Below are positions 7,131 through 33,092 of a stretch of 33,993 nt of DNA, piece by piece. The notes below the pieces were generated by a model. The model was not told the origin of the DNA. It saw nothing but the letters and a program-made list of their open reading frames with translations, and made no database searches. Within the stretch, counting starts at the first letter, position 1. The number at the start of each line of letters is the position of its first letter. This DNA comes from Pedobacter sp. (GTDB taxonomy: Bacteria > Bacteroidota > Bacteroidia > Sphingobacteriales > Sphingobacteriaceae), in contig JACMPF010000029.1 of the NCBI GenBank assembly GCA_014377665.1, positions 1-33,993 of the forward strand, given 5' to 3'. The translations under genes and the position numbers were made by a program.

Positions 7131-9596
7131 ATGATTAAAAGATACCTACTAACCAGTTTCGCAGTTTTTATTTCCACGGTTGTTTTAGCTCAGGAGGAAA
7201 GGGCACCATCTTACCCCCTAATTACCCATGATGCTTATTTCAGTATCTGGTCTAGTACGGATCAGCTGAATGCCTCAGTTACCAATCATTGGACAGGAGC
7301 TGAACAGTCCTTATTGGGGATTATTAAGGTTGATGGTAAGTCTTATCGTTTTCTTGGAAATTCATCGCAAAATTATAATGTAATCCTTCCTTCATCTGAA
7401 GACAAGCATTATAATTTTAGCTATACTGAAACTGCGCCTGGTGGAGACTGGAAAGCTGCTGAATATAGTGCGGGCGACTGGAGAACTGGAGCTGCGCCGT
7501 TTGGTGATGTTTCTCAATTTGCTAAAACTGCTTGGTCATCAAAAAATCTGTGGGTGAGGAGATCTTTCGATTTGGCTGATCCCATGCTAAAAGAGCTTGC
7601 TTTGAAACTCAATCATGATGATAACATTGAAGTTTACTTAAATGGAAGTTTGATATATAGTCATGTTGGATGGACCAATAATAAATTCGTATACATTCCT
7701 ATAGCGATTTCGGTGTTGAAAGGACTGAAGAAAGAGAACAATGTGCTGGCTATACACATCGCTAATACTGCAGGTGGAGCCTGGTTGGATGCGGGATTGG
7801 TATCTAAAACGATTTTGCAAAACCCTGTGGCTCTTGCGCAGCAGAAAAGTGTGAACATTACCGCAACTCAGACAAAGTATGAGTTTAAATCGGGCGGTGT
7901 GGATTTGTCCTTAACTTTTACTTCGCCATTGTTATTGGGTGATTTACATATGGTATCAAGACCAATTTCTTATGTTACCTATAAAGTTAAATCAAACGAC
8001 AAGAAGGTTCATAATGTGGATATACTTTTCAATGCTTCAACAAGTATAGCTACGAATACCTCAGGACAGGAAGTTAAAGCAGATGTAGCCAACTCTGGAC
8101 CATTAGCAATCTTGAAAGCTGGTACAACCGAACAGCCGATTTTAAAAAAGAGAGGAGATGACATTAGAATTGATTGGGGTTATATGTATGTCGCAACGCC
8201 GTTGGCAAACAAAGCCACTCAGTATATTATTCCTCAGAAAAATGCTATTTCGGAATTTACCAAGGGACTGAAGATTATAAGACCTTCTTCGGAAACAGGA
8301 ACAGGGTTATCTCTAAGCACTGTTCTTTCATTTGGGAAAGTTGGTTTAGCTGAAAAACAACAATATGTGATGGTGGGGTACGACGACCAGGAAGCTATTC
8401 AATACTTCGGACAAAATTTAAAGGCATACTGGAATAGCGACGGTATGAAAACCTTCAACAGCGAGCTTGTTAAAGCTAGTGCGGATTATGGTAAGATCAT
8501 ACAAAAAAGTATTGCTTTTGATGTATCAATGTATAAGAATGCCTTGGCCGCCGGTGGTGACAAATATGCTAAACTTTGCGTATTGGGCTATAGGCAATCT
8601 ATTGCCGCACATAAACTAGTAAAAAGTCCTAATGGCGAGCTCTTATTTATGTCAAAGGAAAATTTTAGTAATGGATCTATTCATACGGTTGATGTAACCT
8701 ATCCCTCTGCACCATTATTTTTGGTTTACAATCCGGAACTGGTAAAAGGGCTTTTAAATGGGATTTTCGCTTATAGTGAAAGTGGGAAATGGGTGAAGCC
8801 TTTTGCGGCACATGATTTAGGAACCTATCCATTAGCAAATGGGCAAACGTATGGTGAAGATATGCCTGTTGAAGAATCGGGAAACATGATTATTCTGACA
8901 GGCGCAATTGCCAAAGCCGAGGGTAATGTGGAATATGCTAAAAAGCATTGGAAAACATTAAGTGTTTGGGCAGAATATTTAAGTAGAGAAGGCTTTGATC
9001 CCGGTAACCAGTTGTGTACAGATGATTTCGCTGGTCACCTTGCAAGAAATTCGAATCTATCGGTGAAAGCTATCGTTGCTTTAGGAACTTATGGTATGTT
9101 GGCAGAAAAACTTGGTGAAACCGCGCAAGCAAAAAAATACACTGCTATGGCGAAAGAGATGGCTTTAAAGTGGATGATTATGGCTGATGATGGAGACCAC
9201 TATGCATTAACATTTGATAAGAAGGGTACTTGGAGTCAAAAATACAATTTGGTATGGGACAAGCTACTTGGTTTGAATCTTTTCCCCAAATCTGTTTACG
9301 ACAAGGAAGTAAAGTTTTATCTGACTAAGCAGAATCCTTACGGACTACCATTAGATAGTCGCAAAACTTATTCAAAATCTGATTGGATCTTATGGACTTC
9401 TGTATTGGCAGATAATAGGGCTGATTTCGAAGCCCTAGTAAATCCTGTTTACAAGTATGCTAACGAAACGACCTCGAGAGTTCCACTAAGCGATTGGCAT
9501 GAAACCACTACAGGCAGAATGACTGGCTTTCAGGCTAGAAGTGTTGTGGGTGGTTATTTTATTAAGATGCTAGAGTACGAATGGAATAAGAAATAG
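7131..9596 (+). CDS. Secreted GtaA-like protein (DUF4964/DUF5127/DUF4965/DUF1793) with jelly-roll insertion
   Basis: An 821-residue exported protein with a signal peptide ending near VVLA-QE (residue ~21). Residues ~25-90 match DUF4964 (PSYPLITHDAYFSIW). Residues ~95-228 form an extra beta-sandwich of galactose-binding type (VRRSFDL, NHDDNIEVYLNG, NNVLAIHIAN). DUF5127 follows, then DUF4965 from ~450 and DUF1793 from ~625 (CTDDFAGHLARNSNLSVKAI). The whole is named after fungal glutaminase A. In Bacteroidota it commonly sits in glycan loci, so a glycan-acting role is at least as likely as glutamine hydrolysis. The alpha/alpha-barrel part resembles glycosidases. It is preceded by a terminator and ends tail to tail with the minus-strand gene (no gap). 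Confidence 0.82.
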   Translation: MIKRYLLTSFAVFISTVVLAQEERAPSYPLITHDAYFSIWSSTDQLNASVTNHWTGAEQSLLGIIKVDGKSYRFLGNSSQNYNVILPSSEDKHYNFSYTETAPGGDWKAAEYSAGDWRTGAAPFGDVSQFAKTAWSSKNLWVRRSFDLADPMLKELALKLNHDDNIEVYLNGSLIYSHVGWTNNKFVYIPIAISVLKGLKKENNVLAIHIANTAGGAWLDAGLVSKTILQNPVALAQQKSVNITATQTKYEFKSGGVDLSLTFTSPLLLGDLHMVSRPISYVTYKVKSNDKKVHNVDILFNASTSIATNTSGQEVKADVANSGPLAILKAGTTEQPILKKRGDDIRIDWGYMYVATPLANKATQYIIPQKNAISEFTKGLKIIRPSSETGTGLSLSTVLSFGKVGLAEKQQYVMVGYDDQEAIQYFGQNLKAYWNSDGMKTFNSELVKASADYGKIIQKSIAFDVSMYKNALAAGGDKYAKLCVLGYRQSIAAHKLVKSPNGELLFMSKENFSNGSIHTVDVTYPSAPLFLVYNPELVKGLLNGIFAYSESGKWVKPFAAHDLGTYPLANGQTYGEDMPVEESGNMIILTGAIAKAEGNVEYAKKHWKTLSVWAEYLSREGFDPGNQLCTDDFAGHLARNSNLSVKAIVALGTYGMLAEKLGETAQAKKYTAMAKEMALKWMIMADDGDHYALTFDKKGTWSQKYNLVWDKLLGLNLFPKSVYDKEVKFYLTKQNPYGLPLDSRKTYSKSDWILWTSVLADNRADFEALVNPVYKYANETTSRVPLSDWHETTTGRMTGFQARSVVGGYFIKMLEYEWNKK

Positions 9597-14384: not shown

Positions 14385-15533
14385 GTATCTGAAGACAACT
14401 TTTGTGAACCATTTTAAGAATGGCCAAGTTCTTAGGCTTTTCATGACTTTCAGTTCTTCTATGATACTACTTTCTCCGTCTAAAAACGAGAATACAGTTT
14501 TCGCTTTTGTGCCTTTAAACAAATCTGTGAATAGTTGATGGCCTTCATAATTGCCCTCGGCAAGAACATTTAGAAGTGTAGAATCATAAAGCTTTTCTAT
14601 TGAACCAAGGTGTTCGTTCTTAAAAAAAGGCGTGCCAGTCCTTTCAAATGCTTGAACAATTTTTGTAATGGTTTTTTGAACATTCGTAAAAGTATAACCT
14701 GTAGACCCCCGCGTATCGCCACCGGCAGTTCCGATATTCATCACATTTCCAGATCTTCGTTTAAACTTAAAATCCGTCATTGGAATCACGCCAAACTCGC
14801 TGTCAATCAGATCGTAATCTGAGACCCCAAGCACATTAGTAATATAAGTTTTGAGCTCATGATCATAGATGTCTTCCGTAAGCAGTTCTTTTGAAAATAG
14901 TGTGTATTCAATAAAGACCTCATTTTCGCTCATTGGCAACGTATAGAAAAACGTTGTTCCATTTTTTTGCGAGGTACGAAAGTCCATCAAAAAAGCTTGA
15001 TCAGGATTAAATTTCCGATTGCCAGTTCTGATAGTTACCCCCTTAAAATGTTGAAGAAAATACTGATCTCCGTACTTCAAATCCGGCTTTTTATACCTAG
15101 AGTCGAAGGCAAACTTGCATTCATAGCGACCTTTGTCGGTTTTTACTAAACAGTGGTCGCCTGGGGATTCGACTGATTCGACCGACTCCTCAATCCATTC
15201 CACTTGGGTAAGTTTTTGTAAAAAGCTGCGCACATATTTGTAAAAATCTAATCCCTTTATGGTTTTATATTTATAAGGTAGATGCTGCAAATCTATCCGC
15301 TGTTGATCATTTGTAAAAAAAACCAACTGGTTCCATTTGTGGTGAACAAGAGACTCGAAAATACCCGGTGATTTTTCCCAAAAGGACCAAGTCCGATCAT
15401 TTGTGTCTTTCGTAGATTTATCGATAATTAAAACCCGCTGATTCGTCCAAACACCTGAGGAAAGGGCGCTGTATGCTAGACTAAGACCGGCAAGTCCAGC
15501 ACCACAAATAATAATGTCGTATTTTTTTGTCAT
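14379..15533 (-). CDS. crtY: Lycopene cyclase (CrtY/CrtL type)
   Basis: A 384-residue flavoprotein that would cyclise lycopene ends to beta-rings in carotenoid synthesis. The N-terminal dinucleotide motif IIICGAGLAGLSLAY is present, followed by the family motif NDRTWSFWE. The middle shows VFIEYTLFS and the later part shows GTAGGDTRGSTGYTF, typical of lycopene cyclases. The length agrees with bacterial CrtY. No other carotenoid genes are nearby, so the rest of the pathway must be elsewhere. It is 21 bases downstream of the small lipoprotein gene on the same strand. Confidence 0.88.
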   Translation of the reverse strand: MTKKYDIIICGAGLAGLSLAYSALSSGVWTNQRVLIIDKSTKDTNDRTWSFWEKSPGIFESLVHHKWNQLVFFTNDQQRIDLQHLPYKYKTIKGLDFYKYVRSFLQKLTQVEWIEESVESVESPGDHCLVKTDKGRYECKFAFDSRYKKPDLKYGDQYFLQHFKGVTIRTGNRKFNPDQAFLMDFRTSQKNGTTFFYTLPMSENEVFIEYTLFSKELLTEDIYDHELKTYITNVLGVSDYDLIDSEFGVIPMTDFKFKRRSGNVMNIGTAGGDTRGSTGYTFTNVQKTITKIVQAFERTGTPFFKNEHLGSIEKLYDSTLLNVLAEGNYEGHQLFTDLFKGTKAKTVFSFLDGESSIIEELKVMKSLRTWPFLKWFTKVVFRYL

Positions 15534-15554
15534 CTCGAAAAGTCAAATACTAAA

Positions 15555-16067
15555 CTACTTCCAGTAAAAAAAACTGAAGCTATCTTTCACTATCAACCCG
15601 CTTATATTTTGAGCGTTATATTCCAGTTTGTAAGTTGAAGGTTTAGTAATATTATAGCCTATTGCAAGATCAACGATGACAGACAAGCTATCTTTTGGTG
15701 CAATTTTAACGTAACTATTTGCGGGAGGTGGTATTACTCGTTTAGCCATTGCGCCTTTACAGTTGGCTTCTTCGCCGCTTTCATTTGTAATATCCAGATA
15801 TTTACTAATCAATGGTTTAAAAAGACTGTGCCATTTGCAGAATTGTTGAATGCTGTTAGCATCGTTATAGACGGTGAAACGCATTTGCATAGGTTTACCC
15901 ATTTTAATTGTCGGAGAGACAGTCATTTTTGCATAAAGTTGTGACGAAATTTTTGCAATTGCGTTGTCTAGTGCCGAAGAATCGGCGGATGCTGATTCTG
16001 CGTTTCTGGTATTTTGACTACAAGATGCGAGCGCAACTGCTGCTAAAATAGGAATAGAATTTTTCAT
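15555..16067 (-). CDS. Small lipoprotein with Ig-like domain resembling M35/BsuPI-type N-terminal modules
   Basis: A 170-residue lipoprotein: short signal peptide with lipobox LASC (Cys16). Residues ~50-168 are beta-rich. The PPPANSYVKIAPKDSLSVIVDL run followed by a YKLEYNAQ strand resembles the N-terminal immunoglobulin-like module of deuterolysin-type (M35) peptidases, but no peptidase domain or HExxH is present. The function is unknown, and the resemblance is by eye. It is probably cotranscribed with lycopene cyclase. Confidence 0.6.
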   Translation of the reverse strand: MKNSIPILAAVALASCSQNTRNAESASADSSALDNAIAKISSQLYAKMTVSPTIKMGKPMQMRFTVYNDANSIQQFCKWHSLFKPLISKYLDITNESGEEANCKGAMAKRVIPPPANSYVKIAPKDSLSVIVDLAIGYNITKPSTYKLEYNAQNISGLIVKDSFSFFYWK

Positions 16068-16213
16068 AATTATATGATCGAAAATAACAGGAACGATGCC
16101 ACGATTAGCATAGATATACGAAGGTAGGTACTTTTTACTATTATCAGGTTGATAACCTTATAGTACAGGACAGTTTTGAATCAGAAAGCTATATTTTGTT
16201 AAATAGTAGCTAA

Positions 16214-16423
16214 CTTTTTTCTATCATCTTTTCATGGCTTGCATTTGCAACGAATCTTCCGTTTAAACCTGTAAGTGTTCCAAAAATAGACTGCCAGTTT
16301 GAAGGAATGAATTACGCTTTTAAAGCGCTGGAAGAAGCTTTTAGCGAGCCGAATAGTCGAACAGTATTTAGGATCAGTCCTTCGAACAACTCGATACTTT
16401 TAAATCTGGCTGATAGTAAATAG
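16214..16423 (+). pseudogene. Possible gene remnant of unknown origin
   Basis: The frame is open from just after a TAA at 16211-16213 to TAG at 16421-16423, 69 codons, with protein-like composition (VSVPKIDCQFEGMNYAF, then ALEEAFSEPNSRTVFRISPS). The only in-frame ATG is at 16307, in the middle. Without a start and with no recognised family, it looks like the 3' end of a lost gene, but chance is possible. Confidence 0.25.
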
Positions 16424-16508
16424 TCAATGAATACAGTTCAAATGCGATTTTCATAAGTTAAATAATGTTAAATGACATTTAGCCGAAAGCTAAGGAGTAT
16501 CGTGATGG

Positions 16509-16592
16509 TATATTTGAAGCTTAGACCTTTTCATACAGGTTATATTTGGTTAGAAAAGGGGGTTATCCGGATGGAAATCCCCTTTTGTTTTT
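16509..16592 (+). ncRNA. Possible short transcript with two TATATTTG boxes and terminator hairpin
   Basis: TATATTTG occurs at 16509-16516 and 16541-16548, each matching the Bacteroidota -7 consensus, and a strong stem AAAAGGGG/CCCCTTTT (16554-16561 with 16579-16586) followed by GTTTTT lies directly downstream. The hairpin does not follow an intact gene. A very short transcript or attenuated leader of the gene at 16626 would fit. The terminator itself is better supported than the RNA. Confidence 0.35.
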
Positions 16593-16625
16593 CAATTTCA
16601 ATTTAAATGCTAATATTTGTAGCAT

Positions 16626-16946
16626 ATGTCTCGCGAACTAACAATAACAGTTTTGGCTATCAATGAGCCCAGGTCTGGTAACAACCTGCCATTACACAAG
16701 GTGATGGACAACAGATTGGCTAAATTTGCTTCAGAAATGCAATCCGAATTAGATGTTTTGCTGGAAGGCGAGCAGGATTGTGATGACCTTGTGGTCTGGA
16801 TTAGTTACACCTCTAACTATGCAATCCGTTGGAAAATTGTCAATGATGTCCCAACTCAGATTGAAAAGATAGTTTACGATCTTTGTGCAAAGTTGGGTTA
16901 TATCATTTGGAAGGGAAGCATCATCAGTATTAAACGGAATTCGTAA
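16626..16946 (+). CDS. Hypothetical protein
   Basis: A 106-residue soluble protein with no signal peptide or membrane segment and a mixed alpha/beta pattern: MSRELTITVLAIN, then a helix around LAKFASEMQSELDVLLEG, then strands DLVVWISYTSNYAIRWKI and GYIIWKGSIISIKR. I do not recognise it. It ends 1 base before the ATG of the next small gene, so the two form a coupled pair. Confidence 0.5.
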   Translation: MSRELTITVLAINEPRSGNNLPLHKVMDNRLAKFASEMQSELDVLLEGEQDCDDLVVWISYTSNYAIRWKIVNDVPTQIEKIVYDLCAKLGYIIWKGSIISIKRNS

Positions 16947-16947
16947 T

Positions 16948-17160
16948 ATGACAACAGGAGAAATAGAGGATATCGAAGGGATATTTCAGGGAATTGATTT
17001 AACAGAAGGGCCGATTGAATTGAATGCTGCAACGCGAATCATTGATGTCAAAGCTTTTATCCAGGCTCAGTTGAGCATCATCAAAAATGCTCCTGAAAGC
17101 AGAATGAGCATACCGGCGTATGAGCGGCTTGTCACTTTGAAGGAGATCCTGCTGGCCTAA
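16948..17160 (+). CDS. DUF6965-like small protein
   Basis: A 70-residue soluble protein. The start at 16948 is preferred over the upstream in-frame TTG at 16885 because it lies 1 base after the stop of the preceding gene. The pattern IEDIEGIFQGIDL, then INLNAA-like RIIDVKAFIQAQLSII and a final YERLVTLKEILL recalls the short family annotated as DUF6965 in Bacteroidota. Function is unknown. These small proteins are common in Bacteroidota accessory regions. Confidence 0.6.
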   Translation: MTTGEIEDIEGIFQGIDLTEGPIELNAATRIIDVKAFIQAQLSIIKNAPESRMSIPAYERLVTLKEILLA

Positions 17161-17217
17161 ATATTCAAAAAGACAACCTGTCATTGGTAAACCCATTCTA
17201 AGCTCATTCGTTAAAAA

Positions 17218-17946
17218 ATGTTCACACTTTTCAAAGCCGATATTGAGCAATTCCATATCCCAGACGTCCTTAGCCTCACAACTGACATACCGCATGAACT
17301 TTGTCTTCTGGCGGCAAAGGAATTACAACAACATCTTAGTCAGAACCAGTTCTTCAATCATAATTTCGGTTTGAAAGAAGAAAATGACTCAGCTATCATT
17401 GGAAAAATGTTTGGCGTTCTGGTTGTAAAACTAACCACTGGCAACTTGGGATACCTTTCTGGATTTTCCGGAAAGCTGGGTGGCAAAAACACCTATACCG
17501 AGTTTGTGCCCCCAGTCTTTGATCTGTTAACTGAAGGCAGCTTCCTAAATGCAGGAATGCAGAAGTTAACCAGAATGAATGAGGAAATCAAAGCGACAAA
17601 ACTCGATCATATCAAATTGAAAGAACTCAAGGCTGTACGCCGCATCCATTCCGCCACATTACAAAATAAGATATTTGATCAATACCACCTTTTAAACCAA
17701 GCAGGAATGCCTAAGAGCCTCCGCGGAATCTTTAACAACGCTGGCTATAAAAATCCTCCGGCAGGAGCAGGAGAATGCGCAGGGATTAAACTGTTACAGT
17801 ATGCCTTCCTTCATAATATGAAACCTCTGGCTTTAGCCGAATTCTGGTGGGGGCAGTCTCCCAAGTCTGCAACCTGGAAGCACAGCCAGTTTTATCCCTG
17901 TTGCAAAGAAAAATGTGAGCCTATACTTCAGCACATGCTCAGTTAG
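17218..17946 (+). pseudogene. N-terminal half of RluA-family pseudouridine synthase; catalytic domain absent
   Basis: A 242-residue ORF that matches the N-terminal accessory region of the long (~550 residue) RluA-type pseudouridine synthases: GKMFGVLVVKL, GYLSGFSGKLGG, FVPPVFDLL, then PPAGAGECAGIKLLQYAF and ALAEFWWGQSPKS, with cysteines in FYPCCKEKCEPILQHML. In the family a catalytic RluA domain with an RLD signature follows. Here TAG comes immediately after HMLS and no trace of the catalytic domain is seen in the next 100 bases. It is either a pseudogene cut at the domain border or a stand-alone domain protein. The coding frame itself is intact. Confidence 0.7.
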
Positions 17947-18027
17947 ATTCACTCAAAACCCTGTTACCAAAATAATTTCCCTTGTCAAGTAGTTTATCGC
18001 TAAATATTAATCTGAACATACAATATG

Positions 18028-18388
18028 GAAAATTATACAATGTTGAAGTATTTTGAAAGCCGGACCTAGCGGTCACGCTGGTGGAAAACCATGATACGCA
18101 ACCTTTTCAATAGCTCCGTTGCCCCAATTGGCAAATTTATTGCAATTACGTAAAAAGCAGGCCTATGGTGAGGAAAGAGATTACTTCGATCATCCGAGTT
18201 GTATTGCTGTCGTTCTTTCTAACGGAGATAAAGGTTTTAAATCTATGGAGATTGGTAAAAAATTTGCCAGAAATGTACTTAGAGACGCGCTTGGTCATTG
18301 TGAAGGTGAGGTCTTGATTAATGAGAAGGGTTGGGGAGAGTTCCATTGTGAAGCAGGATCAGTATCTGTTTGGGCAATCTGCGAATAA
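18028..18388 (+). pseudogene. Remnant of GH13 alpha-amylase (C-terminal fragments, frameshifted)
   Basis: Pieces of a cytoplasmic-type alpha-amylase remain in three frames. At 18057-18110 a frame reads PDLAVTLVENHDTQPFQ, the conserved HDTQ region of GH13, preceded in another frame by a short stretch ending KYFESR. From 18119 a different frame reads PQLANLLQLRKKQAYGEERD, then DYFDH, then AVVLSNGDKGFK, and ends in GWGEFHCEAGSVSVW, the C-terminal beta-domain of the family. About 50 residues between HDTQ and PQL and about a dozen after DYFDHPSCI appear lost. The catalytic barrel is gone. The TTG at 18119 is not a credible start. Confidence 0.8.
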
Positions 18389-29106: not shown

Positions 29107-29296
29107 ACTTTCAATGTATTTGAAACAAATACTCTTCAAAACGGAAATTACCCTGCCATTTTGAAGCGGTGCGCTAGGTGGTGATTTTCTGCTAATATTA
29201 TCTTTTGATTGAATCTGATCTCTAAACTAAGCTTTTGATATAATTTTTGATAAGGGCATTGCTTTTGGAACACGCATTTCAATCAAGAGAATTAAA

Positions 29297-29665
29297 ATGA
29301 ACAATCAAATGATATTTGTGCGTATTGCTACCATAAATGATATCAAATACGTCTATGAAATAATTAAAGAAACAGAAGCTTCAGATATCGCCAGGGGAAC
29401 AGGCATTAGTAAACGAGCTGGGATTGATCTTGGAAGAAAAACGTATTTATCCCCCACTAGTTCAGATCAAGGCTGGTTGAATATGCCTTCAATAAAAGTT
29501 GGACCGGGAGATTCTGCAAGATCTCACAGCGCAGATGAGTTTATATACTTATCGAAAATCAGTGATGGCATCACTATTTATATAGATTTATTAGATTCTA
29601 TAATTCCCTATCTTGCGAAAGATAATTTAGTGGATTTAGAAGTATATGAATCACAACACCAATAA
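29297..29665 (+). pseudogene. Chimeric ORF: N-terminus of a GNAT acetyltransferase joined in frame to the C-terminus of an M20 (ArgE-like) deacetylase
   Basis: A 122-residue ORF with two unlike halves. Residues ~6-43 read as the start of the Bacteroidota arginine-pathway GNAT acetyltransferase (FVRIATINDIKYVYEIIKE, then IARGTGISKR). From about residue 44 it reads as the last part of an M20-family deacylase (GRKTYLSPTSSDQGWLNMPS, then KVGPGDSARSHSADEFIYLS, a His/Asp-bearing family motif). Neither half has its catalytic core. The acetyltransferase is normally about 200 residues and the deacetylase about 350. The ORF is translated in frame, so it could be expressed, but it most likely marks a deletion. 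It overlaps the longer start of the next gene. Confidence 0.65.
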
Positions 29666-29675
29666 AATTTCACCA

Positions 29676-31010
29676 ATGCAAGATACAGTTTTGATCATCG
29701 ATGATGAGAAAAAAATATGTAGTCTTTTGGCCCGCATTATTGAATTGGAAGGCTTTAAAGTTTTTCAAGCTTCAACAGGCAAAGAAGGGCTTAAAATACT
29801 TAAAATGGAAGAAGTTCTTGTTGTTTTGAGTGATGTGAAGCTTCCAGATTATAATGGAGTAGAGCTGGTATCTGAAATTAAGAAAATCAATCCGATCATA
29901 GAAGTTATTAATCTCACGGCTTTTGGCACAATAGCAGATGGCGTAATGGCCATGCGGAATGGTGCTTTTGACTACATCACAAAAGGGGACGACAATGACA
30001 AAATTATTCCCCTTGTTTACAAAGCAATGGATAAAGCTAAGCTCAGCGCTCGTGTTTATGAATTGGAGAAGCGGATCGTAAAGAAGTATAATTTCGATGC
30101 TATCCTTGGTAATTCAAAGTCGATAAAGGAAGCTATTGCACTGGCACAAAAAGTTGCTGCTACCAGTACAACGGTTCTTCTACTGGGAGAGACGGGTACT
30201 GGAAAAGAGGTATTTGCCCAAGCTATTCACTACGAAGGTCCAAGAAAACTAAAGCCTTTTGTAGCAGTAAACTGTAGTGGACTTAATTCAGAATTACTCG
30301 AGAGTGAATTGTTTGGTTACAAAGCCGGGGCATTTACCGGTGCTGCCAAAGACAAGAAGGGTTTGCTTGAAGAAGCGAATGAGGGCACCATATTTTTGGA
30401 TGAGATTGGAGAAATGAGCCTTGACCTGCAAGCTAAACTCCTGCGGGTGTTAGAAAATCAGACTTATATCAAAGTGGGAGATACACAGACTAGCCTGGTC
30501 AACGTTCGGATTATCGCAGCCACCAACAGAGATTTGAAAACTGAAGCTGAAGCCGGCAAGTTTAGATTAGATCTTTTTTACCGACTCTCTATTTTTTCAA
30601 TAGAACTCCCGCCGTTGTCGCACCGAAGGGAAGATATCCTGCCTATCGCAATGCATTATCTTGCTGAATTTACAGCGAAAGTTAATAAGCCTGATTTTAC
30701 AGTTGATAAAGAATTTACAAAACTGTTGACTGGTCACAATTGGAAAGGAAACATCCGAGAGCTGAAAAACGTCATGGAACGCGTTGTGATTCTTGCAGAT
30801 GATGCCTTTATTACCTCAAGCCTGCTGCCCTATGAATTTCACCATCAATCCAAATCTGCCGACCCATTGAATATGCATACAGTAGAAAAGCAACACATCA
30901 TAAAAGTCTTAAAATTTACAAGAGGGAACAAAACAGAGACAGCCCGTTTACTTGGTATCGGACTAACAACATTGTATCGAAAAATTGATGAATATAAATT
31001 AGAAGCTTAG
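29676..31010 (+). CDS. Sigma54-dependent response regulator (NtrC family)
   Basis: A 444-residue regulator. The start at 29676 puts [12 protein letters not shown] at the N-terminus; an ATG at 29646 would add ten residues and overlap the upstream ORF. The receiver carries Asp53 (LSDVKLP). The AAA+ domain has Walker A GETGTGKE (171-178), the sigma54-contact loop GAFTGA (218-223) and Walker B IFLDE (~239-243). A Fis-type helix-turn-helix closes the protein ([18 protein letters not shown]). It lies upstream of the kdp genes, and this arrangement is recurrent in Bacteroidota, so control of K+ uptake by sigma54 is likely. The partner kinase is not in the window. Confidence 0.92.
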
Positions 31011-31373: not shown

Positions 31374-33092
31374 ATGAACACAGAATTACTAGGAGTTATA
31401 GCCACGTACGGGCTCACGCTCTTGATCGCTATTCCGCTAGGGAAGTACCTGGCAAAGGTATTTGCCGGTGAGAAAGTCTGGACAGACTTTCTTAAACCTA
31501 TTGAATCAGGAATCTATAAACTTTCGGGAATTAATCCCAAAGAGGAAATGAACTGGAAGCAGCATATGAAAGCGCTTCTTACCATTAACCTTGTATGGTT
31601 GGTATACGGGTTTTTTATATTGATATTTCAGGATAAGCTTCCTCTTAATCCAGACGGAAATCCAGGTATGACTCCTGATCTTTCTTTTAATACCATCATC
31701 AGTTTCGTAGTGAATTGCAATTTGCAGCATTACTCTGGTGAAAGTGGTGTGACTTATTTGACTCAACACGTCGTTATGATGTTTTTGATGTTCGTAAGCT
31801 GTGCAACTGGTATTGCGGCTGCGGTAGTATTTTTTAAAGCTTTCCGCGATAAGACGAGTGAGAAATTAGGAAACTTCTGGGAGTTCTTTGTGAAATCAAT
31901 CACCAGATTGTTATTGCCATTATCTCTAATTGTAGCGTTGATACTTGCATTTAATGGTACCCCGACCAGCTACGAAGCTAAAGACCAATTTATCTCACTA
32001 CAGGGAGATACAGTCAATGTATCAAGAGGACCTGCAGCAGGCATGATTGCCATTAAACACCTGGGTACAAATGGTGGTGGCTGGTTTGGTGCAAACTCAA
32101 CGCATCCACTTGAAAATCCTAATTACGTTACAAATATGGTAGAGCTGATTGCGCAGGTGATTATCCCAATTGCTATGGTTATTGCTTTCGGTATTTTTAT
32201 AAGGAGAAGAAAACTTGGCTGGATCATATTTGGAGTAATGACCATCGGGATGTTTCTATTGCTCATCCCAACCATAAGTTCAGAACTCGGTGGTAGCCCT
32301 GCCTTGGCAAAATTGGGGATTTCTCAATCTACAGGAGCAATGGAAGGTAAGGAAGTTCGTTTCGGGCCAGCTATTTCCGGATACTGGAGTACGGTTACTA
32401 CTATCATTTCTACGGGATCCGTAAACAATATGCACGATAGTACCATGCCATTGACAGGTGCATGGCAACTATTAGGTATGATGGTTAACTCCTTTTATGG
32501 AGGTTGCGGTGTTGGTATCTTAAACTACTTTATTTACCTGATCATAGCTGTATTTATATCCGGTTTGATGGTAGGAAGAACACCAGAATTTCTCGGTCAT
32601 AAGGTTGAAGCAAGAGAGGTGAAAATAGCAGCGATCATTACGCTTCTAAGTCCTTTCTTAATATTGGCAGGAACAGCAATCGCGAGTTACACCTTTACAA
32701 ACCACGGAGACGCTGCTTGGGCAGTGCAACCGCAGAACTGGTTGAACAACCCAGGCTTCCATGGCTTTTCCGAAATGTTATACGAGGTCACTTCTTCCAA
32801 TGCCAACAATGGTTCTGGATTTGAAGGATTGGGAGATAACAACGTATTCTGGAACGTACTAACAGGTTTCGTAATGCTGATCGGTCGTTTCATTCCAATC
32901 ATTGGTCCTGTTGCTATCGCCGGTTTATTGGGTGCAAAGAAATACATCCCAGAATCTGCAGGGACCTTAAAAACAGATACACTTACTTTCGGTCTGATGA
33001 CCTTCGCAGTAATTGTTGTCTTAAATGCACTTTCTTACTTCCCTGCTCTGGCTTTGGGTCCATTGGCAGAATATTTTACTATGCTTAAATAG
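31374..33092 (+). CDS. kdpA: KdpA, potassium-binding and translocating subunit
   Basis: A 572-residue inner-membrane protein with about ten transmembrane helices. The start at 31374 is an ATG nine bases after a weaker TTG at 31365. The pore signatures of the KdpA/KtrB superfamily are present: HYSGESG, TNGGGWFGANSTHPLENP from Thr232, NNMHDSTMPLTG and NNGSGFEG. These carry the filter glycines. KdpA takes up K+ at low external concentrations using ATP hydrolysed by KdpB. It lies 10 bases after kdpF and 13 bases before kdpB. Expression is expected to depend on the regulator upstream. Confidence 0.96.
   Translation: MNTELLGVIATYGLTLLIAIPLGKYLAKVFAGEKVWTDFLKPIESGIYKLSGINPKEEMNWKQHMKALLTINLVWLVYGFFILIFQDKLPLNPDGNPGMTPDLSFNTIISFVVNCNLQHYSGESGVTYLTQHVVMMFLMFVSCATGIAAAVVFFKAFRDKTSEKLGNFWEFFVKSITRLLLPLSLIVALILAFNGTPTSYEAKDQFISLQGDTVNVSRGPAAGMIAIKHLGTNGGGWFGANSTHPLENPNYVTNMVELIAQVIIPIAMVIAFGIFIRRRKLGWIIFGVMTIGMFLLLIPTISSELGGSPALAKLGISQSTGAMEGKEVRFGPAISGYWSTVTTIISTGSVNNMHDSTMPLTGAWQLLGMMVNSFYGGCGVGILNYFIYLIIAVFISGLMVGRTPEFLGHKVEAREVKIAAIITLLSPFLILAGTAIASYTFTNHGDAAWAVQPQNWLNNPGFHGFSEMLYEVTSSNANNGSGFEGLGDNNVFWNVLTGFVMLIGRFIPIIGPVAIAGLLGAKKYIPESAGTLKTDTLTFGLMTFAVIVVLNALSYFPALALGPLAEYFTMLK

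Follow-up and report, generated by a model that had tools for sequence, protein, structure and literature searches.

A chimeric GNAT–M20 reading frame beside kdpA in Pedobacter as the probable product of a deletion in an accessory gene pair

A fusion of two truncated genes upstream of kdpA

The window, a stretch of 33,993 nucleotides of Pedobacter DNA, contains on its plus strand a called open reading frame of 122 codons (29297–29665, ATG to TAA) that is a real in-frame join of the start of one gene to the end of another. Codons 1–40 (29297–29416, plus strand, the junction placed by comparison) belong to a GNAT acyltransferase gene termed GNAT2 here, and the last ~82 codons (29417–29662, plus strand) belong to an M20 deacylase gene termed M20-2. 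Comparison with related genomes indicates that the chimera was very probably made by one illegitimate deletion of ~1.38 kb in a GNAT2–M20-2 pair on the kdp side. Such a deletion would have spared only one fifth of each gene, at the beginning of GNAT2 and at the end of the adjacent M20-2, and would have left the upstream promoter-like element, the NtrC gene and kdpA in place and the frame open. What survives would then serve at most as a leader whose translation sustains NtrC expression from the spared promoter, and both enzyme activities would be lost. The deletion fusion, situated in a dispensable kdp-side pair, is probably recent and ordinary in kind, and what has happened to the pair in other genomes is of more interest than the scar in the window.

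The sequence-only reading had taken this reading frame for an in-frame chimera of GNAT and M20 deacylase parents, and separate matches of the two halves bear out both points. Among 59 genomes searched, the source genome included, residues 1–48 best match a GNAT protein (75% identity to GNAT2 of genome G034, E 2.9e-15) and residues 40–118 align with the C-terminal end of an M20 protein (72%, E 8.5e-36, G002; 72–73% to M20-2 of G002, G034, and G097), and among the matches listed both halves fall into one match only in the source genome itself. Some match to the chimera at E 1e-5 is present in 142 of 145 genomes of the genus, but the best E-value is 8.9e-78 in the source genome versus 1.7e-37 elsewhere (residues 40–122, G080), and the strongest non-self matches listed span residues 40–122 at most. 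A chance reading frame is rejected, as both halves match GNAT and M20 proteins far beyond chance; the minus strand of 29297–29665 has stops within the translated frame. Seven matches to residues 8–103 were considered as possible homologues of the chimera and rejected, all being complete M20 proteins.

An established family of 122-residue fusions is likewise rejected, since the chimera occurs in no other genome searched. The occurrence of the same architecture in other species, which the sequence-only reading had named as evidence against itself, is not found in the 145 genus genomes or in any of the 62 loci returned from a collection of 84,980 species; these loci belong to Pedobacter, Mucilaginibacter, and metagenome-assembled genomes labelled Bacteroidetes, Sphingobacteriales or Sphingobacteriaceae. 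Nor was the same scar found in another strain in either set.

Domain content is consistent with two fragments. In Pfam the chimera reaches 16.5 bits for PF01546, against a cut-off of 24.6, over profile positions 152–204 of 206 only, and PF07687 is not found, whereas both domains are found in the full-length M20-2 of G034; complete M20 catalytic and dimerization domains are thus lacking by Pfam. The best NCBIfam matches, all far under cut-off, are to the ends of the acetylornithine deacetylase and succinyl-diaminopimelate desuccinylase models. The acyl-CoA-binding part of the acyltransferase is missing as well, the chimera holding residues 1–40 of GNAT2 only; PF00583 matches residues 52–110 of GNAT2 from G034, slightly under its cut-off (19.4 versus 20.7 bits), and the motif RNSGVA at residue 91 of that protein is taken here to be the acyl-CoA loop. 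A GNAT enzyme needs its acyl-CoA loop and an M20 enzyme its N-terminal metal-binding half. Because the GNAT part of the chimera ends before RNSGVA and the M20 part is without the N-terminal metal-binding half, neither reaction could run, and the chimera is almost certainly enzymatically dead.

Junction and size of the deletion

The junction lies between Arg40 of GNAT2 and an Ala-Gly of M20-2, with the frame kept. The two-part build of ~43 and ~78 residues proposed earlier therefore stands in outline, with the boundary moved from residue 43 to directly after Arg40. By eye, the sequences of G034 and G080 share a few bases at most at this point, and no sizeable or assembler-word-size repeat is found there in comparison with relatives. 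Since the relatives' sequences share only these few bases, both homologous recombination and a repeat-induced misassembly are unlikely.

Downstream of the chimera lie an NtrC-type response regulator of 444 residues (29676–31010, plus strand, from the ATG at 29676; PF00072, PF00158, and PF02954), whose orthologues occupy the same place in relatives and whose PF00158 domain is a sigma-54 activator domain, and kdpA, encoding subunit A of the potassium pump (31374–33092, plus strand; PF03814, E 2e-223; 94% identity to G034). The start of GNAT is separated from the start of NtrC by 382 bp in the window versus 1741–1949 bp in 16 intact loci; relative to G080 (1758 bp) the loss amounts to 1376 bp. 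The NtrC–kdpA layout is unchanged with respect to relatives, in which the parents of the chimera are adjacent, in the same order and between conserved flanks. The single deletion suggested by the sequence-only reading is consequently retained, with ~1.38 kb lost between neighboring parents, while its identification of the deleted stretch as an arginine operon is not. No second intact copy of either parent is found in the source assembly (80.6% complete), where the only M20 gene besides the chimera is that of the arginine operon.

A false contig join, or an error of binning, in an organism whose gene pair is intact would produce the same picture. The assembly is fragmented (296 contigs, 80.6% complete), the chimera is seen in no other genome searched, and the codon models described below detect no clear decay in it, all of which this explanation would accommodate. 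It is nevertheless unlikely: the junction carries no repeat of assembler word size, the join is in frame within an NtrC–kdpA layout like that of relatives, and further deletions of the same pair occur in genomes G085 and G159.

The arginine operon as an alternative source

The sequence-only reading had proposed that the chimera is the scar of an arginine operon deleted from inside its GNAT gene to inside its M20 gene, and that arginine synthesis had been lost here. The proposal has real grounds, as the parents of the chimera come from these two families, and the operon order that it assumed, with GNAT first and M20 near the end, is the order seen in G034 (locus L043) and G002 (L044): GNAT-argG-argC-argD-argF-argB-proC-M20-argH. 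Matches over NCBIfam cut-offs are obtained for argG and argC of L043 and for argB, proC, and argH of the source genome (L033). Matches of argD and the carbamoyltransferase to their own families, and of the operon M20 to DapE-ArgE, stay under cut-off, and the operon GNAT has no NCBIfam match at E 1e-8. The BT3761 protein is of the GNAT type. Most Bacteroidetes, including a Pedobacter strain, are reported to make arginine via succinylated intermediates, a route in which BT3761 probably acts as N-succinylglutamate synthase and the desuccinylase is likely to be a distant relative of DapE (PMC7311316). The GNAT and M20 genes of the Pedobacter operon fit these roles as putative orthologues of BT3761 and of BT3549, the candidate N-succinylcitrulline desuccinylase, and they are of the same two families as the parents of the chimera.

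The parents themselves are nonetheless better sought elsewhere. The best-matching genes form a second, paralogous GNAT–M20 pair beside kdp, distinct from the pair of the arginine operon, and gene tables drawn for twelve fetched regions resolve these two settings, arginine operon and kdp side. The kdp-side paralogues are 72–75% identical to the chimera, whereas the operon M20 is 53% (source genome), 58% (G034) or 61% (G002) identical; operon-type GNATs are 51–55% identical to GNAT2 among the matches listed, and the operon M20 of the source genome is 57–59% identical to M20-2 by domain. The NtrC and kdpA genes that flank the chimera are the flanks of the kdp-side pair. Unlike the genes of the arginine operon, the parents adjoin each other there or have NtrC between them: the comparison with relatives that had been proposed earlier shows GNAT2, M20-2, NtrC, and kdpA, with no argG, argC, argD, argF or argB in the kdp-locus gene tables.

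The source genome furthermore retains argD, argF, argB, proC, a whole operon M20 and argH, in this order, on contig C243 (L033), where 75 bp separate the argD start from the contig end that cuts the operon (G000:C243, 11103–12311). A full GNAT, argG, and argC are not found in the assembly (80.6% complete), and their position would be past the end of C243; a genome-wide search for arginine genes, as proposed earlier, thus recovers argD, argF, argB, and argH without argG and argC. This absence could be held to favor a lost operon. Control searches of five genomes with the same queries recover argG in three and argC in four, the source genome being missed by both, and argG is likewise absent from G129, which is also 80% complete. 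A GNAT match is present in all 132 genus genomes that are at least 90% complete, and the four genomes without one are all less than 90% complete. The simplest reading of the missing genes is an assembly gap, a true loss of them being the less simple alternative, and the arginine operon as the source of the chimera is improbable in the extreme. A chimera of two fragments from arginine-pathway families invites the tempting but unwarranted inference of an arginine requirement, which the present analysis corrects.

The GNAT2–M20-2–NtrC–kdpA unit in Pedobacter

The kdp-side pair into which the deletion is placed occurs in several layouts, among them GNAT2-M20-2-kdpA in G034 and GNAT2-M20-2-NtrC-kdpA in G029. 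A survey was anchored on kdpA, which is found in 136 of the 145 genus genomes; the region before it was taken for 131 of these (all but G001, G065, G121, G137, and G144), and with two second copies this gave 133 loci that were scored for GNAT, M20, NtrC, and kdpA, as well as for isolated lid-domain reading frames, within 7.5 kb before kdpA. The intact order GNAT-M20-NtrC-kdpA is present in 16 loci (13 plain, two with an extra reversed NtrC, one with an extra lid reading frame). NtrC alone is found in 40 loci, two NtrC genes in one, and GNAT, M20, and NtrC are all absent from 37. The others comprise GNAT-M20 (10), GNAT-lid-NtrC (8), GNAT-lid-NtrC-M20 (2), the pair reversed before NtrC (5, including L182, where part of M20 lies beyond 7.5 kb and was seen in the wider region), GNAT-NtrC (3), NtrC-GNAT-M20 (3), M20-NtrC-lid (2) and M20 only (2), the remainder being the window and three loci with a broken GNAT2 (L140, L184, and L186).

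Neither GNAT2 nor M20-2 lies within 7.5 kb before kdpA in 78 of the 133 loci, a count in which some absences are weak because contig ends truncate several of the regions. A full GNAT2 (64–100% identity) is present in 72 of the 145 genomes, near kdpA in 47, and 73 lack it; where the pair is missing from kdp, it is in many genomes present at another place (e.g., L038, L178–L180). Since 73 genomes are without a full GNAT2 and 78 kdp loci have neither gene, the pair is, on this gene content, dispensable. It stands beside kdp in both orientations and also beside a second kdpA.

In the arginine pathway, the presumed paralogues of GNAT2 and M20-2 are N-succinylglutamate synthase and N-succinylcitrulline desuccinylase, respectively; the two kdp-side genes would form a dispensable acylation and deacylation pair tied to potassium uptake. 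Their kinship to acylating and deacylating arginine enzymes, together with their repeated placement at kdp, suggests for the intact pair that an N-acylated amino acid may take part in adaptation to potassium or osmotic conditions, a role that becomes directly testable. The listings obtained from the open-licence literature, with subscription journals mostly outside its scope, show nothing on a GNAT–M20–NtrC unit beside kdp. The picture that emerges is of an accessory unit of GNAT, M20, and an NtrC activator beside the Kdp pump, whose enzyme pair is often cut or lost and appears to be the parent of a selected lid domain.

Locus L034 encodes a KdpD sensor-domain protein without a kinase (15175–16308; PF02702 only over cut-off) and, in a gene of its own after it, a histidine kinase that has HAMP and PAS domains (16476–18254), an arrangement that suggests that KdpD is split in Pedobacter.

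Additional scars in the GNAT2–M20-2 pair

Further scars are present in the pair. In G085 (L107, 5468–5572), codons 1–24 of GNAT2 are joined in frame to the C-terminal RKNKCNCLCTA, and the resulting 46-codon reading frame runs into the start of an intact M20-2; a whole GNAT2 is found on another contig of this genome. In G159 (L186, 6371–6598), codons 1–17 are joined in frame to approximately the last quarter of GNAT2, beside a second, divergent kdpA. These deletions resemble that of the window in being in frame and in beginning near the start of GNAT2 (within the first 17–24 codons, 40 in the window), and differ from it in leaving M20-2 whole. In G131 only a ~50-codon end of M20 remains, directly before NtrC, and GNAT2 is frameshifted in L140 and L184. 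With scars in G085, G159, G131, L140, and L184, the pair is, as far as these loci can be read, repeatedly lost or cut.

All three large deletions found to start inside GNAT2 are in frame, which gives a hint, though only a hint, that the following gene depends on the first being translated; L140 and L184, with frameshifts, are counter-examples. At L186 (G159:C18) the pair with the cut GNAT2 is a second GNAT2–M20-2 pair, divergent from a second kdpA that is only 43% identical, which ties the pair to kdp once more. At L160 (G063), GNAT2 is followed by an NtrC without its first ~180 residues, a further deletion at a kdp-side locus.

An inherited fusion of GNAT2 with the M20 lid domain

A different fusion of the same genes is found in ten genomes (G002, G012, G059, G076, G084, G087, G088, G097, G109, and G134), in which GNAT2 and the isolated M20 dimerization (lid) domain form one reading frame of 323–343 residues (L035 7184–8143, L040, L116, L117, L118, L123, L125, L127, L167, and L168). 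It lies at kdp in eight of the ten, and in G076 and G134 it lies beside NtrC on another contig. The lid also occurs as a separate reading frame (L036 10839–11243, L037 8531–8929, L039 6742–7230, L107 about 8266–8574, and L119), after GNAT2 in G014 and G028 and between NtrC and kdpA in G018, G080, and G085. In the complete M20-2 of G034 the lid corresponds to PF07687 (M20_dimer); the assignment is by BLAST, the domain being unrecognized by Pfam at E 0.01 in the L035 fusion and the L036 reading frame, the two that were scanned.

In a tree of 39 lid sequences the ten fusions group with G018, G080, and G085 in one clade (support 100), with G014 and G028 placed next to it without support and deep nodes weak. 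Values of dN/dS are about 0.05–0.13 for seven pairs of fusions and 0.24 for the separate-frame pair G085–G018, versus 0.03–0.04 for the same domain in whole M20-2 (two pairs), so that the lid fusions are, by these ratios, under purifying selection but less constrained than the domain in the enzyme. The lid fusion looks like an earlier deletion-type fusion of GNAT2 and M20-2 that turned into a lasting protein, and not every GNAT2–M20 fusion is dead. Like the window, it combines GNAT2 and a piece of M20-2 in one reading frame before NtrC; unlike the window, where the start of GNAT is joined to the end of M20, it has a whole GNAT and the central M20 domain, and it is inherited.

A more general account may be drawn from these cases, in which the pair is a recurrent source of new reading frames, in-frame deletions are kept since expression of M20-2 or NtrC requires that GNAT2, in front, be translated, the lid fusion became stably inherited, and the window is the youngest example. 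This account is speculative and on balance rather doubtful.

Age and constraint of the chimera

Selection on the chimera was estimated with a codon model in which kdpA (100 codons), NtrC, and the two parts of the chimera have branch lengths in common, for ten taxa (G126 dropped) on a topology built from an alignment in which NtrC rows were frame-shifted. If the chimera has its own omega on the window branch, the multiplier comes to 1.15 and the log-likelihood rises by 0.1 units, with the profile ~1.9 units lower near 0.6 and 2.0. With a background omega of 0.04–0.06, this range of multipliers would leave room for neutral evolution along no more than a few per cent of the window branch. When the flanking genes are instead assigned a separate value, the multiplier is 0.56 and 2.75 log units are gained. 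These genes thus evolve more slowly along the window branch than on the rest of the tree, and measured against them the chimera may show a relaxation of about twofold. Both estimates of selection are weakened because synonymous sites are near saturation. Separate-partition fits are unreliable, with saturated synonymous sites, window branches of 9–12 for two sets, and an omega of 2.2 on a near-zero branch for the GNAT part. Private changes at conserved sites number 1 of 17 and 1 of 30 in the window, and 0–1 and 0–3 in other taxa.

The codon models thus give neither a clear decay signal nor a clear excess of amino acid changes in the chimera, which would be consistent with a recent deletion, a constrained reading frame, or a false join. 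The second of these would mean that the deletion created a small protein with a function of its own, which selection then retained, a parallel to the older lid fusion. An open frame without a clear excess of amino acid changes is compatible with such a protein, and the ten lid-fusion genomes, with their low dN/dS in seven pairs, provide a precedent. However, neither half contains a complete domain (only the M20 end is seen, below threshold), the chimera is confined to one genome, the precedent retains the whole GNAT that the window lacks, and the multiplier of the flanks may indicate a mild relaxation of the chimera. A selected new protein is accordingly very improbable, and a recent deletion that left an inactive reading frame is preferred.

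Promoter-like elements upstream of GNAT and kdpA

The element that the deletion would have spared is a putative promoter, GGGCAT-N5-TTGGA, 43 bp before the start of the chimera (29254–29269, plus strand), with three mismatches to the sigma-54-type consensus used here for scoring. In 33 of 55 regions upstream of GNAT, the best sigma-54-type site starts 41–45 bp before the gene. The window differs in that its best site in the scan is 31 bp upstream with two mismatches, against three for the site at the conserved position. Against shuffles that preserve single-base content only, and with one place counted twice (L163/L183), the mean best mismatch is 2.98 versus 4.07 for GNAT (55 sites), 3.98 versus 4.09 for NtrC (54), and 3.48 versus 4.10 for kdpA (80). 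Upstream of kdpA the best site, often TGGYAY-N5-TTGGC, lies at 210–245 bp in 73 of 80 regions, and it may represent either a promoter of kdp or a portion of a small open reading frame located upstream.
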